Shown here: positions 9,575 to 49,720 of the stretch, piece after piece | Layout: each line of letters opens with the position of its first letter | How positions within the stretch are numbered: the first letter of the stretch is position 1 | NCBI RefSeq assembly: GCF_014397255.1 | Contig: NZ_CP060724.1 | Location: forward strand, 930,001-994,000 | Length of the DNA stretch: 64,000 nt | Direction: 5' to 3' | From: Weissella diestrammenae | GTDB lineage: Bacteria; Bacillota; Bacilli; Lactobacillales; Lactobacillaceae | Made by a program: the position numbers and the translations under genes | The notes under the pieces: model-generated | Told to the model about the DNA's origin: nothing | Database searches by the model: none | The model's input: only the letters and a program-made list of their open reading frames with translations

Positions 9575-9697
9575 ATTGTCATCGTATGATTATAAATGTC
9601 GTTTAAAGTTAAAATGGAATATATTGTTTACATTATAAATTCATATATATAGTATGATTTTAATTTTTGTAGTATAAACTGGAAACTCACGAGTTGG

Positions 9698-9726
9698 TTG
9701 CACGGTGCAACTAACCAGTATATAAT
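9698..9726 (+). promoter_or_regulatory. promoter of the GH43 gene
   Basis: TTGCAC (9698-9703), 17-base spacer, TATAAT (9721-9726). The -35 box lies within a perfect GTTGCAC-G-GTGCAAC palindrome (9697-9711), a likely regulator site. Confidence 0.7.
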
Positions 9727-29198: not shown

Positions 29199-29226
29199 TT
29201 GAGATATGTTATCAATAATGTACAAT
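29199..29226 (+). promoter_or_regulatory. promoter of mntA-hepT
   Basis: TTGAGA (29199-29204), 16-base spacer, TACAAT (29221-29226), 32 bases before the antitoxin start. Confidence 0.5.
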
Positions 29227-29257
29227 GGAGAAAAAGGGGTTAAGAAAGGAGTTAGTC

Positions 29258-29620
29258 ATGATTGAAATTGATTTACCAGCAAACAAGATGCCATTAGATG
29301 AAATGAAGCAGAAGTTGGCAACTGTTTTTCCAAAATATGATATTCAAAAAGCTTATATTTACGGCTCGTATGTGAATGGTGGTTTTGATTTTTCAAGTGA
29401 CTATGACTTTTTAATCGACGGCAAAATTGGTGATCAAGAACCGTTTATTGGCAATCAAAATGTTGTGCGTCAGTTAAAACGTGAACTATCAGAAGCCTTA
29501 GATCGTACCATAGATATTACTGAAATGAGCATTATTGAACAACCTAGTCACACAGAGTCTAGTAGAAAATTCAAGGCAAATGTTATGAAAGATAAGGTAT
29601 TGGTATATGAGCAACAATAA
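29258..29620 (+). CDS. mntA: MntA-type nucleotidyltransferase antitoxin
   Basis: 120 residues, minimal nucleotidyltransferase. The catalytic GS-X10-DXD motif is exact: Gly36-Ser37, then Asp48 and Asp50. In characterised MntA-HepT pairs this enzyme adds AMP to a tyrosine of the HEPN toxin and so neutralises it. GAAAGGAG sets the ATG at 29258. Overlaps hepT by 14 bases. Confidence 0.88.
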   Translation: MIEIDLPANKMPLDEMKQKLATVFPKYDIQKAYIYGSYVNGGFDFSSDYDFLIDGKIGDQEPFIGNQNVVRQLKRELSEALDRTIDITEMSIIEQPSHTESSRKFKANVMKDKVLVYEQQ

Positions 29621-29966
29621 GGACATTCGTTATTTGGAAAGTATGTTGATATATTTGGATCAAGTGAACGATATTGCTAGTAGTAAGCCTATGGACTTGA
29701 TTATTACTGAATATGGACTTGAATTGAGTAGTATTCTGATGAAATTGACACAAGTTGGTGAGTTGGTGGGTAGATTGTCATTCAATACGATTGAAGAATA
29801 CCCTGATGTGCCCTGGCGTGAATTAAAAGGTTTAAGAAATGTAATTGTGCATGAATATGAAGATATTCGATTACAGGAAATTAAAAATATTATCTTGAAT
29901 AATATTCCAGATACTGAAGAACAATTGCGTAACGTATTACAGAATGAAATACGTAAATCATATTAA
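29607..29966 (+). CDS. hepT: HepT-type HEPN RNase toxin
   Basis: 119 residues, all-helical HEPN protein. The active-site motif RX4HXY is present as Arg77...His82-Glu-Tyr84; the Tyr is the residue AMPylated by MntA. Cleaves RNA when free in known systems. Translationally coupled to the antitoxin and followed by a terminator. Likely stabilises the element and may act against phage. Confidence 0.88.
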   Translation: MSNNKDIRYLESMLIYLDQVNDIASSKPMDLIITEYGLELSSILMKLTQVGELVGRLSFNTIEEYPDVPWRELKGLRNVIVHEYEDIRLQEIKNIILNNIPDTEEQLRNVLQNEIRKSY

Positions 29967-40856: not shown

Positions 40857-41201
40857 ATGGAACTAGAAGTGCGTGTATTTGTAGCACCTGCTATTTTCCC
40901 GGCCAATGGTCTTTGGTTTGATTTACCGTTGAATGAAAATACGATACGTACGAGATTGCAGAATACTGGTAAGTTATTTGGGCTGTCCTGGAACGAACCA
41001 ATAATTATCAGTGACTATGAAGCACCGTTTGCAGTTGATGCTTATGCATCGATTAGAGAATTGAATATATTAATTGACACGTTGAGAGCAATAAAAAGTT
41101 CTGACGTGTTTTTTGATGCCATGGTATCTGGTGACTTGAAAGCTGCAGGTGTTGATTTAAGTGTTTTTGATTATAAACAGTACTTTCGTACGTTAAATTA
41201 A
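40857..41201 (+). CDS. short ArdA-like antirestriction protein
   Basis: 114 residues, acidic. The ISDYEAPFAVDAYASIRELN segment is the conserved N-terminal region of ArdA, a DNA mimic that inhibits type I restriction enzymes. It has only about the first two-thirds of a full ArdA and ends in a short FDYKQYFRTLN. Could be a single-domain variant or a degenerate copy. Confidence 0.72.
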   Translation: MELEVRVFVAPAIFPANGLWFDLPLNENTIRTRLQNTGKLFGLSWNEPIIISDYEAPFAVDAYASIRELNILIDTLRAIKSSDVFFDAMVSGDLKAAGVDLSVFDYKQYFRTLN

Positions 41202-41212
41202 GGAGAAAAGAT

Positions 41213-41722
41213 ATGACAGTAGAAGTAAAAATTTTTGTTGGTGCAATGTTGCAGCCTGCTAATGGTAAGTGGTTTACACTACCAACGCCAGTGAGAACAA
41301 TTGAAGCTGAATTAGAGCGCATCGGGGCGATTGGTGGTACAAGTCACAATGAAGAGTACATGATTACAGATTATGAAGCACCGTTTAAAATCGATGCACA
41401 TACGTCGATTAATCTTTTAAATCAAGTAGCTGATGAATTATCTCGGACTGAAGTAGCTGATGATGTGATCAAACTTCTTTTTTCTAGCCATTTTTCAGAT
41501 ATTCAAAAGTTTAATAATGATGAAGTATCTGGTTTGGAAATAATTCAAGCGGATAACCAGTCAGATTTGGCTTATGAAGTATTAGAAAGTATTGGCGGTG
41601 TTGGTGAATTGCCTGCTGACAAGATAGAAAGTTATTTTGATTATGACGCTTATGGTCGTGATTTGTTGATGTCTGGTGATTATTCTGATCTAGGTAAAGG
41701 TGTTTATATTGGGAATAATTAG
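41213..41722 (+). CDS. ardA: ArdA antirestriction protein
   Basis: 169 residues, full length. Contains ITDYEAPFKIDAHTSINLLN and the C-terminal YFDYDAYGRDLLMSGDYSDLGKGVYI of ArdA. Strongly acidic, as expected for a B-DNA mimic protecting incoming element DNA from type I restriction. Lies near the oriT, so it could enter early. Confidence 0.85.
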   Translation: MTVEVKIFVGAMLQPANGKWFTLPTPVRTIEAELERIGAIGGTSHNEEYMITDYEAPFKIDAHTSINLLNQVADELSRTEVADDVIKLLFSSHFSDIQKFNNDEVSGLEIIQADNQSDLAYEVLESIGGVGELPADKIESYFDYDAYGRDLLMSGDYSDLGKGVYIGNN

Positions 41723-42967: not shown

Positions 42968-43557
42968 TCCACCAACCGGAACATCGTGTAGGGCGGTAGT
43001 GTCTTTTTCACATGCTTAGTTCGCATCGATGTATTTGGCTAACCAACCACTTGAATTATGGTGGGTTTTATATGTTGCACCATTGAACGTGTCAGTGACC
43101 AAAGGGAACGGCAGTGGCAATATCCGTGGCTCTAGCGGAGCGTTGAGAGCCATGGGTGTCTTGGTTACGGAAAGTGAACGCAAAGCGTGAGCCCGTAACT
43201 GACACCTTGCGTGATAATGGGGCAACTAAATGATGTATAACCCCCGTACACTAACAGGGGGTTAGATTGCAAGAAGCGCTATCGGCGCACAAGCCAAAAC
43301 GGGTGCTGAATTGCTGATATATCGGCATTTGTATGGCTCTTGCAAAAATTGGTACTCAAAAAGCAAAAATGCTAATTTTTGAAAGAATTTCGACTAAAAT
43401 TGGCATCTTATATGTCTTGAATTAAAGGGGGTGTTTGATTTTTCAATATTTATCAGGTTAAAACACCTGCAAATTATGGTTTTATCCGGCTTTTTAGATT
43501 AAGTCGGTTTTTTTATTGCAAATGTTGTGAATAATATCAAAAAAGGGAGTTCTTAAA
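42968..43557. other. non-coding origin region of the element
   Basis: About 600 bases without a gene. Holds several dyads: GGCTCT...AGAGCC (43123-43151), a larger imperfect stem GGTGTC-GTTACGG...CCGTAAC-GACACC (43155-43206), and the oriT-like palindrome at 43238-43264. The dyads before oriT could be a single-strand origin or relaxosome binding sites. A hairpin GCCGGATAAAA/AATCCGGC-type near 43480-43515 precedes the adhesin gene. Confidence 0.55.
43238..43264 (+). other. oriT / nick site of the MOBT relaxase
   Basis: TAACCCCC and GGGGGTTA form 8-bp arms around an 11-base loop ending CTAACA. The CTAACAGGGGG run is the same as that remembered for the nicking palindromes of ICEBs1 and Tn916, whose relaxases are of the same MOBT family as the one encoded here. 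Confidence 0.78.
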
Positions 43558-45443
43558 ATGACTACAATTTCAAATAAACAAATGCGTAAGCTAAAGCGGT
43601 ATATGACGGTTGCTACAATGGCGGTATCATTATCGGGTGGTTTTGTTATGCCGATTGTTGCAAGTGCTAATTCTGTGGCACCGACTACAGTATCTGCCTT
43701 GTTGGCAAGTCGTGCCTTAAACAATGATCACAATGGATTAGGACAAATTTACTATCCAAATGGTAGTTCTATTGGTGTGTACGCTGCCACTGGCGATGAT
43801 CAGGCAAATATTTCTAATGGTGTAACAACACCAAATACAGTAATCAGTTACGGTAACGTAAGTAAAAGTGCTGTGATGTTTGGTAATGGACAATTTGTAT
43901 ATTGTTTGCAGAATCACAAAGGAAACCCTGCAGGAACACCTGGAACGTCGTGGGACTCTAATTTATCAGATTATGCTAATGAGACAATGACGGTAGTCAT
44001 GGCATTAGGATATCCAAATACGTCATTATCGAGTGGCAATAACTCGGCTATTCGTGATTATATGTCGACGCAATATGCGATTTGGGCTGCTGAACAAGAT
44101 GGGCAAATCAAAACTGACAATGGTTCTATGGCAAGTTTGAACTCATTGTCTGATGGAGCGGGTGTAATTCAACGTGCAAACGATTTATATAATCGAGCAC
44201 TAGATATTATGTCAAAGGGTGGAATTTCATATTTAACTCGTGATACTCATGATGAAGAAAAAGCAAAGGCAGAAAGTCAATTAACTGCTGATTTAACGGC
44301 AGCTGCATCAGCTAAAACAGATGAATTAAATAAGACAGTCGATTCAGATTTGGATAATCAAACCCAAACAGAAACAAAGAGTATGACAAAATACATGCAA
44401 GATGTATCAGATAAAGCGCTGAACACTGTGCAATCAACTTACACTAAACTAGGTCAGGACGTGTTGGCTGATAAGGTGAACATGCTTTTGGGTGCTAATC
44501 ATAAGCCGATTGCAACACTAAACAGTTCTCAATACATGTTCATGGACAAAAGCGACAATTCACGTGCGTTTACATTTAAGCCGATTGCGACTATGCCGTC
44601 ACTTAATTTGGGAAATGATGATGCAAGTACGTTGATTCCAAATAAGACAACGAAGTTGGATACAAAGAAAAATTATGCTGGTGAGATGAACACTAGTGCA
44701 ACTGGAAAGGTAATCTCATCAACTGCTGGAGCTGGTTTGAATGAATTAGGCGACAAGGTCAATACGATAGCTATTAAATTGGATCATCAGTTACCAACGG
44801 GATCATATGTGATGCAAGGAGACCAGAAGATTAATGAACAAAATAACGGGACGTTCATTATCAAAAATGATGCAGAATTTGAGATTCATATTCCAGGCAA
44901 TGCGTCATCAGATACGGAAAAGTTAAGTTACACGATTGTGGGTAATACGGCATTAACTTTGGCTGATTTTAAGGCGTCAGCAAAGACTGACTTGTCTGGT
45001 ACTGAAGAGATTAAGGCATCTGCAAAGGATACTGTTGATTCGACAATTAGTTTCCCATACCACACCGATGCTGAAGTTGGTGTTGTCAGTGTGGGAAAGT
45101 CACCAAATCCCGCTAATCAGGATACGGGAGTGTTTGTCATGAATATGAATGCGGTTGATAAGACTGATGAAGTATCAGGCAATGTGCCAGTTGAAGTGAA
45201 TAAGACTAAGAATGTTGATGCAGATTATTCAGACAAGAAAGACTTGAATATTCAGGTCGACGCTACTGCTGTACGTAAAGCAGATGCTCAAAGTAAGTTT
45301 TCATGGGGGCTGAATTAGCGGAGACTGCTGCAAAACACCCAGTATCATTCGTAACAGCTGGATTAGCTGGTATTGCTGGATTAGCTGGTATTGCTGGATT
45401 AGCCGGTATGACAGTTTATCTTTATAAGAGGCGTCGGGCATAA
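43558..45443 (+). pseudogene. thioester-domain surface adhesin, frameshifted near its wall anchor
   Basis: About 628 residues when repaired: signal peptide (to about residue 40, VASANS), a thioester domain with Cys116 in VYCLQNHKGNPAGTPG and Gln172 in TQYAIWAAEQ, a long Lys/Asp/Thr-rich helical stalk, and a C-terminal membrane helix of AGLAGI repeats with a YKRRRA tail. Thioester domains bind covalently to host or partner amines. The frame ends early at 45318; one more G in the five-G tract 45305-45309 restores the membrane anchor to 45443. No LPXTG precedes the helix; only ELAETAAK is seen. Confidence 0.82.
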
Positions 45444-45681: not shown

Positions 45682-45739
45682 AAATTATAAAGCATAGGGT
45701 AAACAATATTTATCTTTCCCACTGATTGATAATAATTAG

Positions 45740-45840
45740 TTCTCAATAAGTTAAAGACTTCGCAAGGTTCGTGACCTTGATTGAGAATTGCCAGTAATGG
45801 CAAAGAAAAAGGCATCAGACTGATAGCTGGTGCCTTTTAT
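45740..45840 (+). ncRNA. conserved RNA repeat, copy 1, with terminator
   Basis: Outer stem TTCTCAA/TTGAGAA (45740-45746, 45781-45787) encloses the hairpin CAAGGT-TCGTG-ACCTTG (45763-45779). A second hairpin TTGCCA-GTAA-TGGCAA follows, then a terminator GGCATCAG...CTGGTGCC with TTTTAT. Reads as a complete small RNA of about 100 bases on the plus strand. Confidence 0.65.
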
Positions 45841-45855
45841 CGAGAGAGTAACAAT

Positions 45856-46011
45856 TTAGATCATATGGCTAATGAAGTTTTGCAACATAATCATTGCAAC
45901 AATAAACAATGTTGTTTTTGGAAATGTTACAACTAAATTGAATATGACTTTGACTAACGCAAAGATAATACGGAAAAATATTTCAATAGTATCGGTTAAC
46001 TTTTCAAGCAT
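45856..46011 (-). CDS. 51-residue hydrophobic peptide, candidate type I toxin
   Basis: Minus strand: AAAAGGAGGTGATAAT directly before the ATG is a near-perfect ribosome site. The product MLEKLTDTIEIFFRIIFALV... is mostly membrane-spanning, with a Lys-Thr-Thr turn near residue 32 and ends ISHMI. A TGATATAAT extended -10 lies at 46088-46099. Its transcript would run into the bidirectional terminator shared with RNA copy 1, the arrangement of Fst/par-type toxin-antitoxin loci. No known toxin family is recognised. Confidence 0.62.
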   Translation of the reverse strand: MLEKLTDTIEIFFRIIFALVKVIFNLVVTFPKTTLFIVAMIMLQNFISHMI

Positions 46012-46088
46012 ATTATCACCTCCTTTTCACAATTCTCTATAACTAATTGTTGTGAAATTGTGTAGGGGGCGCCTACCTCTCGACTGTT

Positions 46089-46099
46089 TCATTATATCA
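46089..46099 (-). promoter_or_regulatory. minus-strand promoter of the hydrophobic peptide
   Basis: TATAAT on the minus strand (plus 46091-46096) preceded by TGA, an extended -10 element. Equivalent TGATATGAT and TGATATAAT sites stand in the next two intervals at 46335-46343 and 46590-46598. Confidence 0.6.
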
Positions 46100-46119
46100 A
46101 ACTTATTTGGTTTGGTTTG

Positions 46120-46226
46120 TTCTCAATAAGTTCTAGACTTCGCAAGGTTCGTGACCTTGGTTGAGAATTGTCAATAATGGCAAAAAAAAGGCACTAGTAA
46201 ACTTTGGGAGCGACTAGTGCCTTTCT
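46120..46226 (+). ncRNA. conserved RNA repeat, copy 2, with terminator
   Basis: TTCTCAA/TTGAGAA (46120-46126, 46161-46167), CAAGGT-TCGTG-ACCTTG inside, second hairpin TTGTCA-ATAA-TGGCAA (G-U wobble where copy 1 has G-C), terminator GGCACTAGT...ACTAGTGCC (46190-46221) and a short T run. Confidence 0.68.
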
Positions 46227-46228
46227 GC

Positions 46229-46328
46229 ATCAAGGGAGGTGTGAAACATTAATGGACATTATTATATTAGTTAAAACAAATGATTACTGAAATATTTATT
46301 CAAAAGAATCGATATTCTCCCCCTTGAT
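46229..46328. repeat. inverted repeat interval after RNA copy 2
   Basis: ATCAAGGG (46229-46236) pairs with CCCTTGAT (46321-46328), enclosing 84 bases. The left arm overlaps a ribosome-site-like AAGGGAGG and a 12-codon frame MDIIILVKTNDY (46252-46290); pairing would hide the site. The same layout recurs after copy 3. Confidence 0.55.
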
Positions 46329-46378
46329 AGGAATATCATATCAGAATTTATTGAAATTGTATATTTATTAGGGGTTTA

Positions 46379-46486
46379 TTCTCAATAAGCAAAAGACTTT
46401 GCAAGGTTCGTGACCTTGGTTGAGAGTCGCCAGTAATTGCAAAGAAAAAGACACTAGTAAACTATGGGAGCGACTAGTGTCTTTCT
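46379..46486 (+). ncRNA. conserved RNA repeat, copy 3, with terminator
   Basis: TTCTCAA/TTGAGAG (46379-46385, 46420-46426) around the invariant CAAGGT-TCGTG-ACCTTG hairpin; terminator GACACTAGT...ACTAGTGTC (46450-46481). Against copy 2 the second terminator pair changes from G-C to A-T on both arms, a compensatory change supporting the stem. Confidence 0.68.
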
Positions 46487-46487
46487 G

Positions 46488-46584
46488 TATCAAAGGGGGA
46501 ACGAAACATTAATGAACATTATTAAAATTGACATAAAAAATGATGAAATATTTATTTGAAAAACTGATATTTTCCCCTTTGATA
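46488..46584. repeat. inverted repeat interval after RNA copy 3
   Basis: TATCAAAGGGG (46488-46498) and CCCCTTTGATA (46574-46584) are an 11-bp perfect inverted repeat around 75 bases containing a 15-codon frame MNIIKIDIKNDEIFI. Parallels the interval after copy 2. Confidence 0.6.
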
Positions 46585-46633
46585 GAAATATTATATCAGA
46601 ATTTATTTAAATTGCATATTTATTATGTATTTG

Positions 46634-46681
46634 TTCTCAATGAGCAAAAGACTTTGCAAGGTTCGTGACCTTGATTGAGGG
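46634..46681 (+). ncRNA. conserved RNA repeat, copy 4, in the relaxase leader
   Basis: TTCTCAA/TTGAGGG (46634-46640, 46675-46681) around the same CAAGGT-TCGTG-ACCTTG hairpin, but with no terminator after it. It lies in the 5' leader of the relaxase transcript, so the structure may act in cis, or be a target for the RNAs made by copies 1-3. Confidence 0.62.
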
Positions 46682-46742
46682 TGATCAATGATAATATTCA
46701 GTATTTTGAAGGATAAAAAAATGAAAAAAGGAGTGTGTAATT

Positions 46743-48494
46743 ATGTTGACTGTCTATATTGATAGTTTTTTACTAATATCATTTTTTCTTATAATAATTG
46801 CAATTTATAATCTAGTATTTATTTATATTTCAGATGATTATTTTGCTTTCATTATTATGGAGGTGGTTGGTATTATTGCTTTGCTCGTATATCGCTGGTT
46901 GATTGGGGGTCAGAAAGTGATTGATGTTAATGGTGAGTTTAAATTAGCTGATGCAGTATTCTTGGGAACAGTGCAGCATAGTTTGAGATTTAGTTTGCAA
47001 CCAACGATCAGAGTTGGTTTGATGCAAAATGATGAAATGGTCGAGACGTATGAGATTGAAATTGATATATCAAAAATCGAAGCACTACCAAATATAGGTT
47101 CAAAGATTGATATTGTCTCAATTAAAGGTAATGAATTGATTGGTTATACTGGTGAATTCCTTGATAGTGATGCTCATTATCCTGTGAGTGATTTTATTGC
47201 ACAATTTGAAGCGCTATCAAAGATGAAAGATGTTGGTTTATACCAAATAATGAAAAGGAGTGATGATATGGACGATATTGCATATGCTGAATTTACAGGA
47301 GATAGCTTAAAGTTATTGCGGGAAAAGTATAAATTGACACAGAAAGATGTTGCTGCAGCAATTGATATGTCTGTGGGTAATATTCGTGCGATTGAGCAAG
47401 AAAATAAAGTGATCAAGCAGAAAAATATTGATAAGTTGATTGCCGCATATCCAAAGTTTAAGGACTTAATTACTCTGCAGTTTGACTGGGTAGCATTTAA
47501 TTTCCCTGATATGAATGGAGAAGATGTGATAAAAAACGTGTTGAATTTGAAGCGTGACTTGTTCATCAATCGTGCCACGTCACAAAACTTCTATACACGT
47601 GAATACGCCTACGGTGGTGAGAAAAGCATATATGTACAAGACTTCGCACCTGATTTAGATAATGATAACTTCCAGAAGCCAGGTGCAACGTTGTTCCTAA
47701 CTGGTATGGGTTGTCGTCTGTTTGAAAAAGCTATGATTGAGCAAGGCATCGATTGGCGTGGGTTCTTTAATCGTATGTATGCTTATAAAGGACATGCTAC
47801 ACGTGTCGATTTGGCTATTAATGATATGGACGAACTTGTCGATGCGGTACAAGAAAAGAAATTCTGGTCAAAAAAGAAAGTCTACAATATTCATGGATCA
47901 AGTGACGGTGGTTGGACTATTGATTTTGGCAAGTCACCATTTGTCGTGCGCATATATGATAAACAAAAAGAACAGGCAGCCAAAGGAAATTTTACTAATA
48001 TATCAACACGTGTTGAACTTGAATTACATGGGGATAAGGCGACACAAATAATTGAAGAATGGCTTGGAAGTGACAATTTAGTTGGTTCTGCATTCGATAT
48101 TTTGTATACTTATGTGGTGTTTTTGAATGAAAATGTAGATGAGAGTCAAATGAAAGGCTTTCGTGTTCGAGAAGAGTATATTGATACATTAAAACCCAAT
48201 GCATCATGGGCACTGTTTACAGCCCTTGGTCAGAAGATGAAATTTATTACGCAACCACGTGCACAAAGCATTGAGCGTATTGAGAATTGGCTTAGAAATT
48301 ATGTATGTCCGTCTCTGAAAATTGTTCAACAGACGGGCGGTTGGAACTCGTTGCTGGAGTCCATTAATGAAGCTGAACTATCACTTGAACAACAAGAGTT
48401 GGTGCAAGCAACAAATACTAAACAAATGTCAGAGTCTGCAGTAGATATTCGTACTATTCAAATTCCAGGTATGAAAGAGCTGCTGAATATGTAA
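46743..48494 (+). CDS. MOBT (Rep_trans) relaxase with an in-frame upstream membrane region
   Basis: The open frame encodes 583 residues. Residues 1-175 carry two membrane helices (4-31 and 35-57) and a soluble beta-rich part. From Met176 (47268) comes a helix-turn-helix (LREKYKLTQKDVAAAIDMSVGNIR) and the replication-initiation/relaxase domain with RVDLAINDMDE and RVELELHGDKATQII. This part, 408 residues, matches Tn916 Orf20 and ICEBs1 NicK, which nick oriT. AAAAGGAGTGATGAT stands directly before 47268, so the relaxase may be made separately; the first start also has AAAAAAGGAG. Confidence 0.85.
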   Translation: MLTVYIDSFLLISFFLIIIAIYNLVFIYISDDYFAFIIMEVVGIIALLVYRWLIGGQKVIDVNGEFKLADAVFLGTVQHSLRFSLQPTIRVGLMQNDEMVETYEIEIDISKIEALPNIGSKIDIVSIKGNELIGYTGEFLDSDAHYPVSDFIAQFEALSKMKDVGLYQIMKRSDDMDDIAYAEFTGDSLKLLREKYKLTQKDVAAAIDMSVGNIRAIEQENKVIKQKNIDKLIAAYPKFKDLITLQFDWVAFNFPDMNGEDVIKNVLNLKRDLFINRATSQNFYTREYAYGGEKSIYVQDFAPDLDNDNFQKPGATLFLTGMGCRLFEKAMIEQGIDWRGFFNRMYAYKGHATRVDLAINDMDELVDAVQEKKFWSKKKVYNIHGSSDGGWTIDFGKSPFVVRIYDKQKEQAAKGNFTNISTRVELELHGDKATQIIEEWLGSDNLVGSAFDILYTYVVFLNENVDESQMKGFRVREEYIDTLKPNASWALFTALGQKMKFITQPRAQSIERIENWLRNYVCPSLKIVQQTGGWNSLLESINEAELSLEQQELVQATNTKQMSESAVDIRTIQIPGMKELLNM

Positions 48495-48559: not shown

Positions 48560-49720
48560 ATGAAAAGTGATGATGAACGTAAAATTATTAAAACAAGACG
48601 ACCTAAACTTAATCAAAGTGAACGTTTGTTGATTGAACACATGTGGAATGTTGATCAGTTTTCTCAATCAGAGATAGCACGACGTATGAACCGTGACCAG
48701 GGTATTATCTCTCGAGAGCTACAGAAAGGAAATACTGTAGATTTTGGTCAATTTAGTCGAAAAGAACTATTAAACCTACCAATACATGCACGTATTAAGT
48801 ATTCTGCATTTAGAGCTGAATATATTAGTAAGAAACGATCATTCAGATATGGACAGAATACAAAATTGACACCAGAATTGCAGGAGTTAATCGAGCATTG
48901 GATAAACGTTGAAAAATGGACGCCTGAGCAAATCGCTGGAAACGTACCAGATGTTGAAGTATCCGCATCTACCATTAGACAATGGGCACGACGTGGGCAG
49001 ATACATATTAATGTAGGTACACGGAGAAATGGTAGTAAGGTAGATAAGGAACGTGATAAAACGTTAAGAGAAAAACAGCAAGAGTTGGCCCGATTAAGGC
49101 AGAAATTGGTTGAATCAGGTGATTTGGTAAAGCATTCGATATTCGATAGACCAAAAACGATTGAGAAACGCACACAATTTGGTCACTGGGAAATCGATTT
49201 GGTATTGCCAGCTAAGACAAAAGATGAAGTTCAGTTCGATAATACGGCAATTATGACGTTTGTTGAGAGAAAATCACGATTTTATACACTTATTAAAATT
49301 GAAAATAAACGTGCAGATAGTGTCATCAAAGGCTTTGACTTGTTCTACAAAAGATACGGTAGCATGTGTCGATCGATCACTGCAGATAATGGTATTGAAT
49401 TTGTGTCCTGGACTTTCCTGGAACATGTGCAACGTGAGTTAGGTGTCAAAATCTATTATGCAACGCCCAGTTCACCGCATGAGCGGGGGAGTAATGAACG
49501 AAAAAATCGTGAATTGCGTAAGTACCTGCCTAAAGGTAATACGTTTAGAAATATTAACCAGCCAAAATTAGATGCGTTATCAGATAAGATTAATATGAAG
49601 CCGATGCTACAAGCATTAAACGGTAAAGTACCTGCAGATGTATTTGAAATAGAATACACTAAACTCGCACGTAATCGACGTGCATATGCGAAAAGAAAAC
49701 AGAAAAAGTCATCAGAATAA
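48560..49720 (+). CDS. IS30-family DDE transposase
   Basis: 386 residues: N-terminal helix-turn-helix pair (LIEHMWNVDQFSQSEIARRMNRDQGIISREL), a second HTH-like region (WTPEQIAGNVPDVEVSASTIRQWARRG), then the DDE core with Asp in HWEIDLVLP, Asp in ITADNGIEF and Glu in ERKNRELRKYLPKG. Longer than common IS30 transposases (about 310-350). I find no convincing terminal inverted repeats close to either end, so it may be a resident recombinase of the element rather than a separate insertion sequence. Confidence 0.88.
   Translation: MKSDDERKIIKTRRPKLNQSERLLIEHMWNVDQFSQSEIARRMNRDQGIISRELQKGNTVDFGQFSRKELLNLPIHARIKYSAFRAEYISKKRSFRYGQNTKLTPELQELIEHWINVEKWTPEQIAGNVPDVEVSASTIRQWARRGQIHINVGTRRNGSKVDKERDKTLREKQQELARLRQKLVESGDLVKHSIFDRPKTIEKRTQFGHWEIDLVLPAKTKDEVQFDNTAIMTFVERKSRFYTLIKIENKRADSVIKGFDLFYKRYGSMCRSITADNGIEFVSWTFLEHVQRELGVKIYYATPSSPHERGSNERKNRELRKYLPKGNTFRNINQPKLDALSDKINMKPMLQALNGKVPADVFEIEYTKLARNRRAYAKRKQKKSSE

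Follow-up and report, generated by a model that had tools for sequence, protein, structure and literature searches.

A repeat of about 65 nt, which occurs in four copies in a mobile DNA element of the lactic acid bacterium Weissella diestrammenae, is, judged by comparison of its sequences, a real and new structured RNA of the plus strand that lies outside the known catalogues. The element was analysed in a stretch of 64,000 nt (NZ_CP060724.1, positions 930,001-994,000; referred to as the window), and all window coordinates are positions in this stretch. Together with several RNAs predicted on the minus strand, the repeats may form a type I toxin-antitoxin (TA)-like module with a new structured RNA, which is carried along with the gene for a thioester-domain (TED) surface protein on an integrative conjugative element. 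We favour this reading tentatively, with slightly less than even confidence, because the stems of the RNA are compensated, the minus strand has promoters and end stems, the Shine-Dalgarno (SD) sequences are buried and related hydrophobic peptides are encoded opposite the RNA.

The structured plus-strand RNA and its distribution

In a 74-nt alignment, the four copies start at 45736, 46116, 46375 and 46630 (spacing 380, 259 and 255) and share 73-91% identity. The 18-nt core GCAAGGTTCGTGACCTTG has four exact matches compared to 0.04 expected per window, a number that was never reached in shuffles, and a search of the whole 1.66-Mb genome revealed no copies beyond these four. Copies 2, 3 and 4 lie within a longer tandem duplication of about 255 bp (a 124-nt block with 87% and a 116-nt block with 79% identity); the spacer of copy 1 is longer and differs from the spacers of the duplicated copies. 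Copies 1 and 2 are predicted to form an outer stem around two hairpins, next to which a hairpin with a GNRA-like loop and a last strong hairpin are located, and the folding z-scores of -6.0 (copy 1) and -3.7 (copy 2) confirm this fold. Copy 3 alone is predicted to adopt the same fold only once its 3' hairpin is removed, and copy 4 would retain mainly the inner hairpin. The hairpin TTGTCA/TGGCAA contains a U-G wobble in copy 2, and the hairpins 3' of copies 2 and 3 differ by a change from G-C to A-T on both arms (GGCACTAGT/ACTAGTGCC versus GACACTAGT/ACTAGTGTC).

A covariance model built from the four copies detected one further copy in G339 (E 1.6e-9) and four in G203 (E 4e-5 to 0.03), both of them genomes of the same genus. 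The test for compensatory changes was not significant for the four window copies alone (59 of 500 shuffles); the proof of stem conservation is therefore carried by the copies of these relatives. In the alignment of all nine copies, 92% of the stem cells are paired, while slid controls drop to 27-50%; this alignment was fitted to the covariance model and is hence biased towards structure. Changes on both sides were found in 13 of the 23 stem pairs and 22 cells, compared to 5.6 and 6.6 in shuffles, and none of 500 shuffles reached these values. G-U cells outnumber A-C cells over all stems (18 vs 7, p 0.04) and especially in the outer stem (13 vs 0), which points to the plus strand as the one that folds, although the copies are related and these counts are not independent. 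We regard the sequence, the structural conservation and the strand of the RNA as shown. The loops are kept across the copies while the stem bases vary: the loop of hairpin 2 begins with YUCR in all nine copies (YUNR type, as in 23% of random loops of 7 nt), and its core UCRYGA is self-complementary in seven of them with G-U, A-U or G-C at the centre (10% of random loops), the self-complementarity being broken in two G203 copies. Such a loop would fit kissing between copies.

The nine-sequence covariance model yields E-values of 1.6e-13 (G339) and 2e-14 to 2e-8 (G203) for sequences that are themselves members of the model. It found no further convincing match in 397 Lactobacillaceae and 295 Lactobacillales genomes, two samples that overlap, and none in the remaining 25 genomes of the genus; matches in G064 (coding DNA), G242, G343 (alaS coding DNA) and G130 were rejected as chance. 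When the 18-nt core was searched in the 397 family genomes with up to two mismatches, the only exact match was in the W. diestrammenae genome; the inexact matches have the look of chance words, and those inspected are coding DNA. Viral contigs contain no match to the long repeat pattern, and the 16-nt core alone occurs in 54 stretches. The RNA was also not found in Leuconostoc plasmids that encode a relative of the element's 72-amino-acid (aa) protein; one of these plasmids (L039) carries a gene annotated as 'putative holin-like toxin' at 9618-9722.

These results bear out much of a preliminary description made from the window alone, which had reported the fourfold repeat upstream of the relaxase gene, the stems that stay paired where bases differ, as seen in the wobble of copy 2 and the two-arm change between copies 2 and 3, and the lack of a named RNA family. 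No Rfam covariance model, that of the lactis-plasmid RNA included, matched at the gathering threshold or at E-values up to 5, and the copies of the relatives likewise matched no Rfam family. The covariance search proposed there led to the two related genomes, and the conservation of stems in homologues, chosen beforehand as one point on which an RNA would stand or fall, was found in the form of compensatory change.

Putative minus-strand RNAs and candidate peptides

The anatomy of promoters, terminators and end stems on the minus strand is based on prediction. Extended -10 promoters are present in six minus intervals of the three elements, with TGATAYRAT in five of them and TGGTACAAT in G339 (L117); the corresponding intervals of the relatives contain TGATATAAT, TGATACAAT and TGGTACAAT. 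In the window, they would drive three RNAs, m1, m2 and m3, each of which shares its terminal hairpin with a plus-strand copy (Table 1). The 5' end of all six minus RNAs, near the expected transcription start site, is predicted to pair with a stretch just ahead of the terminator (p 0.012, 0.007, 0.001, 0.001, 0.003 and 0.07, five at ≤0.012); the segments were picked by eye, and the stem sequences differ among the RNAs. No clear promoter/end-stem unit of that kind was seen in the G203 interval between copies B and C. The terminator scores (d) favour the minus strand in five of the six intervals: 15.4 on the minus versus -23.6 on the plus strand for m2, -4.0 versus -27.2 for m3, 11.2 versus -57.6 in G339, and 20.7 and 6.5 versus none listed and -70.7 in G203. 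In interval 1 of the window, the scores are -17.1 on the minus and -7.0 on the plus strand, the latter being near the threshold.

The putative RNA m1 contains a frame of 51 codons with a strong SD sequence behind copy 1, which had been overlooked in the preliminary description. A second element has a relative of this peptide in the corresponding antisense position: G203 encodes a 46-aa peptide (MLEFFRIVFVLLWLIIKGTVSLIFRFPLVTLGLVLLLYVQHLLNQL, behind GGAGGTG) opposite the RNA, between copies C and D. The open reading frames (ORFs) of both elements are thus located in spacers between copies, on the strand facing the RNA. The two peptides share 33% identity (E 0.002 in a single comparison) and are hydrophobic, with grand averages of hydropathy of 1.35 (51 aa) and 1.64 (46 aa). 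A search with the 51-aa peptide in plasmids, viral contigs and the genus gave the G203 relative as the only convincing match. The SD sequences have predicted unpaired probabilities of 0.17 (51-aa message) and 0.00 (46-aa message), compared to a mean of 0.43 for ten other genes, and the start codons of both messages have values of ≤0.08; the hairpins in which the SD sequences are predicted to be buried are unlike each other. Another frame of G203, encoding 55 aa opposite the RNA array (L116 3750-3917, plus strand), has its own SD sequence, a TGATATAAT promoter, a weak end stem and a strong terminator; no relatives of it were found in plasmids.

Cofolding of copy 1 with m1 yields a predicted gain of about 31 kcal/mol, whereas the gain is about 0 for copy 2 with m1 and for copy 1 with m2; among copies 2/3 and m2/m3, it amounts to 33-50 kcal/mol. 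This pattern is expected if the shared hairpin sets the specificity. The complementarity of the whole RNA to ribosome sites is not enriched over other genes; with hairpin 1 alone, the two peptide starts rank 3rd and 6th of 69 in a post hoc comparison.

Table 1. Positions of the repeats, the putative minus-strand RNAs and associated features in the window
Feature	Position	Strand	Remarks
Likely oriT of the element, TAACCCCCGTACACTAACAGGGGGTTA	43238..43264	+	common to mobT relatives (Leuconostoc and same genus); outside the repeats
TED surface-protein gene	43558..45318	+	its relatives in G203 and G339 lie immediately before the RNA
RNA copy 1	45739..45803	+	three-way junction (outer stem and two inner hairpins), then a third hairpin whose loop GUAA is of GNRA type
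Putative minus RNA m1	45806..46088	-	about 283 nt, toxin-mRNA-like; ends deduced from promoter and hairpin; fold z -4.4
Hairpin common to copy 1 and m1	45811..45834	both	terminator-like both ways, weak to borderline
m1 end stem, 3' arm CTCTCGAT	45839..45846	-	immediately ahead of the terminator
51-codon hydrophobic ORF, MLEKLTDTIEIFFRIIFALVKVIFNLVVTFPKTTLFIVAMIMLQNFISHMI	45856..46011	-	candidate type I toxin; in m1, behind copy 1
SD sequence GGAGG (AAAAGGAGGTGAT) of the 51-codon ORF	46019..46023	-	predicted paired
m1 end stem, 5' arm GTCGAGAG	46077..46084	-	
Extended -10 promoter of m1, TGATATAAT	46091..46099	-	
RNA copy 2	46119..46183	+	
Putative minus RNA m2	46182..46328	-	no plausible ORF; end stem ATCAAGGGGGAG / CTCCCTTGAT
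Hairpin common to copy 2 and m2	46190..46221	both	good terminator on the minus strand only
Extended -10 promoter of m2, TGATATGAT	46335..46343	-	
RNA copy 3	46378..46442	+	
Putative minus RNA m3	46443..46583	-	no plausible ORF; end stem ATCAAAGGGGAA / TTCCCCCTTTGAT
Hairpin common to copy 3 and m3	46450..46481	both	better terminator on the minus strand; G-C to A-T on both arms versus copy 2
Extended -10 promoter of m3, TGATATAAT	46590..46598	-	
RNA copy 4	46633..46697	+	without 3' hairpin; in the mobT leader; closes the 255-bp tandem duplication
MobT-type relaxase gene (Rep_trans, helix-turn-helix)	46743..48494	+	adjoins the repeats here, not in the relatives

Linkage with the TED gene and competing readings

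In both relatives, the RNA starts directly behind a TED gene, 13 nt after the TED stop codon in G339 (L117) and about 34 nt after it in G203 (L116), and these TED genes are 45-48% identical to that of the window. The unit of TED and RNA is located between oriT and mobT in the window, between relatives of the window genes 28587 and 29225 in the otherwise colinear element of G339, and in a different element backbone in G203. TED and RNA co-occur in the same three of 28 genomes. Close mobT relatives are found in the same three genomes; co-occurrence alone therefore cannot separate TED from mobT, but position does. The RNA is about 13 kb away from mobT in G339 and 9-17 kb in G203, where mobT relatives of about 50% identity have no adjoining RNA copy. 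Since the relatives have the RNA right behind TED and far from mobT, it travels with TED and not with the relaxase. No RNA was found with a TED relative in G293, which belongs to another genus. The TED frame of the window stops early near a G run (45300-45441), and another frame carries on with a membrane anchor in which 18-bp tandem repeats (GLAGIA) are found; the relatives have the frame whole. Phase variation, decay or a sequencing error might account for the early end. In G203 (L116), a promoter-like site TGATAAAAT on the plus strand at about 4295, opposite copy A, would direct transcription into the 3' end of TED.

The preliminary description had proposed trans-acting RNAs that control the relaxase gene, and a leader element with the same role can be considered alongside. 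Copy 4 indeed lacks a terminator and lies in the mobT leader; however, the RNA of the relatives does not share this proximity to the relaxase gene, given the distances to mobT stated above, and complementarity to the mobT start is unremarkable, so that control of the relaxase is unlikely. Inverted repeats in this position, close in front of a gene for a Rep_trans-type relaxase, could also be DNA iterons, an oriT or a rolling-circle origin. This has become the least credible explanation and is largely refuted, since the stems change in a compensatory manner with G-U favoured over A-C, the repeats of the relatives are far from mobT, and the likely oriT, which we take to resemble that of ICEBs1, is located about 2.5 kb upstream of the repeats and is also present with mobT relatives that have no such repeats.

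In the TA-like module, the plus-strand RNA with its outer stem, two inner hairpins and GNRA-type hairpin would be the regulatory or antitoxin RNA, and m1 would be the toxin message, silenced because a 5' hairpin covers its ribosome site and its two ends pair. The two RNAs would meet at the shared hairpin, where they are fully complementary, and pairing begun there would either trap the toxin message in an inactive form or cause its cleavage. The later copies may have arisen by tandem duplication; the short minus RNAs without ORF plausibly act as decoys or are remnants of toxin messages. We infer the steps from transcription and translation to toxicity and pairing, as well as which RNA silences which. 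An antisense or type I TA locus was the other possibility named in the preliminary description, and it gains support from the hydrophobic 51-aa ORF of m1 with its strong SD sequence, sequestered start and paired ends, and from the 46-aa relative in G203. A bolder and rather improbable version is that the RNAs belong to a new structural class, moving with a TED (surface-adhesin) cassette between conjugative elements and serving as a multicopy antitoxin, that the palindromic YUNR loop (UCRYGA) allows kissing, thereby dimerising the array, and that the opposite strand produces new membrane peptide toxins and short decoy RNAs.

The convergent RNAs of the pAD1 par system begin to pair at a bidirectional terminator common to both, a 5' hairpin hides the SD sequence of the toxin message, its 5' end is paired, and direct repeats provide a second complementary region (PMC7472228). 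The module described here resembles par/Fst (RNA I/RNA II) in the opposite-strand RNAs meeting at a shared hairpin, the small hydrophobic peptide, the location on a Gram-positive mobile element, the predicted paired 5' end of the toxin message, the 5' hairpin over the SD sequence and the YUNR loop. However, the peptide has no match to the Fst family, the YUNR loop sits in the plus RNA, the plus RNA has a larger conserved three-way-junction fold and several copies, and several minus RNAs have no ORF. Convergence is partial, since the minus promoters are clear and no convincing plus promoter was seen; the shared hairpin after copy 1 is a weak to borderline terminator both ways, and those of the relatives terminate on the minus strand only. 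For a putative counterpart of the direct repeats, p is 0.11 in the window and 0.015 in G203, with a sense control of 0.049.

The type I systems TxpA/RatA and BsrG/SR4 of Bacillus also consist of a message for a small hydrophobic peptide and an antisense RNA, overlap at the 3' ends and are carried on mobile elements; in contrast to these, the RNAs described here overlap in the shared hairpin only, and there is no sequence match to the toxin families. The lactis-plasmid RNA and other Rfam motifs have only the setting in Lactobacillales mobile elements in common with the repeats. A conserved and hitherto uncatalogued RNA fold can now be described by nine examples and a covariance model, and it is linked to small membrane peptides, a candidate family that family searches miss and whose messages have the anatomy of type I toxin mRNAs. 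If the TA reading is true, an addiction or regulatory module would accompany a surface-protein gene and not the genes for transfer, and the division of labour among duplicated antitoxin and toxin RNAs could be studied in the multicopy array.

Several results weigh against a TA module. The 3' hairpins of most copies are poor terminators or none at all on the plus strand, and no convincing plus-strand promoter was seen; a discrete plus-strand small RNA is therefore only putative. For most hairpins, termination is stronger on the minus than on the plus strand, so the repeats may lie within an operon mRNA. A coding partner is not always present opposite the structured RNA: m2, m3 and the minus RNA of G339 have no SD-led ORF, and one interval of G203 faces a non-hydrophobic 55-aa ORF. 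Outside the shared hairpin, the copies show no significant complementarity to the 51-aa message (joint p = 0.11; sense control 0.049), and the value for G203 (p = 0.015) is a hint only. Neither the 51-aa nor the 46-aa peptide matches a Pfam family at E-values up to 10, Fst and Ldr included. The minus-strand promoters of the TGA-TATAAT type that the preliminary description placed behind copies 1-3, where opposite transcripts were said to meet at a shared terminator, were found (TGATATAAT, TGATATGAT and TGATATAAT), and so were the hairpins in which these copies were said to end. On the plus strand, however, these hairpins score as weak terminators behind copies 2 and 3 (d -23.6 and -27.2) and as a weak to borderline one behind copy 1 (d -7.0).

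The main rival, a serious although on balance doubtful one, is that the structured RNA belongs to an operon mRNA as a cis element, located in the TED 3' untranslated region and in the spacer or leader of the next genes, where it would act in stability, processing or dimerisation, and that the minus RNAs are independent antisense regulators. With 13 nt in L117 and about 34 nt in L116, the distance to the TED stop codon is too short for the RNA to have a separate promoter outside TED, the inter-copy hairpins of both relatives terminate the minus and not the plus strand, and some copies lie in leaders of the next genes (mobT in the window; in L116, copy A precedes a gene for 76 aa and copy D one for 187 aa). 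However, the conservation of loops amid changing stems exceeds the needs of a simple stability element, window copy 1 has a near-threshold plus-strand terminator, and peptide-coding minus RNAs with type I-like anatomy would be left unexplained. A structured RNA inside a long conjugation operon, beside hairpins, could also be a processive antitermination or attenuation element that carries the polymerase past these hairpins, similar to EAR, put and conAn2, the latter being an RNA of Gram-positive conjugation operons (PMC8955417). In contrast to these, the repeats are not at the operon start, occur in several copies and are linked to TED at three different sites of the elements, and the relatives have no strong plus-strand terminator right behind the RNA; together with the negative Rfam search, this makes antitermination quite improbable.

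Further features of the elements

IS30-type transposase genes, which are about 64% identical, adjoin mobT in the window (48560-49720) and in G203 (C5 31960-33089; L136). A gene pair consisting of a nucleotidyltransferase-like and a HEPN-like gene, possibly an MNT/HEPN toxin-antitoxin system, is located at 29225-29966 in the window and at 2924-3776 in L117, where the TED-RNA unit of G339 lies just upstream. Two adjacent ArdA antirestriction genes, the first of which is shorter, are present at 40857-41722 of the window.
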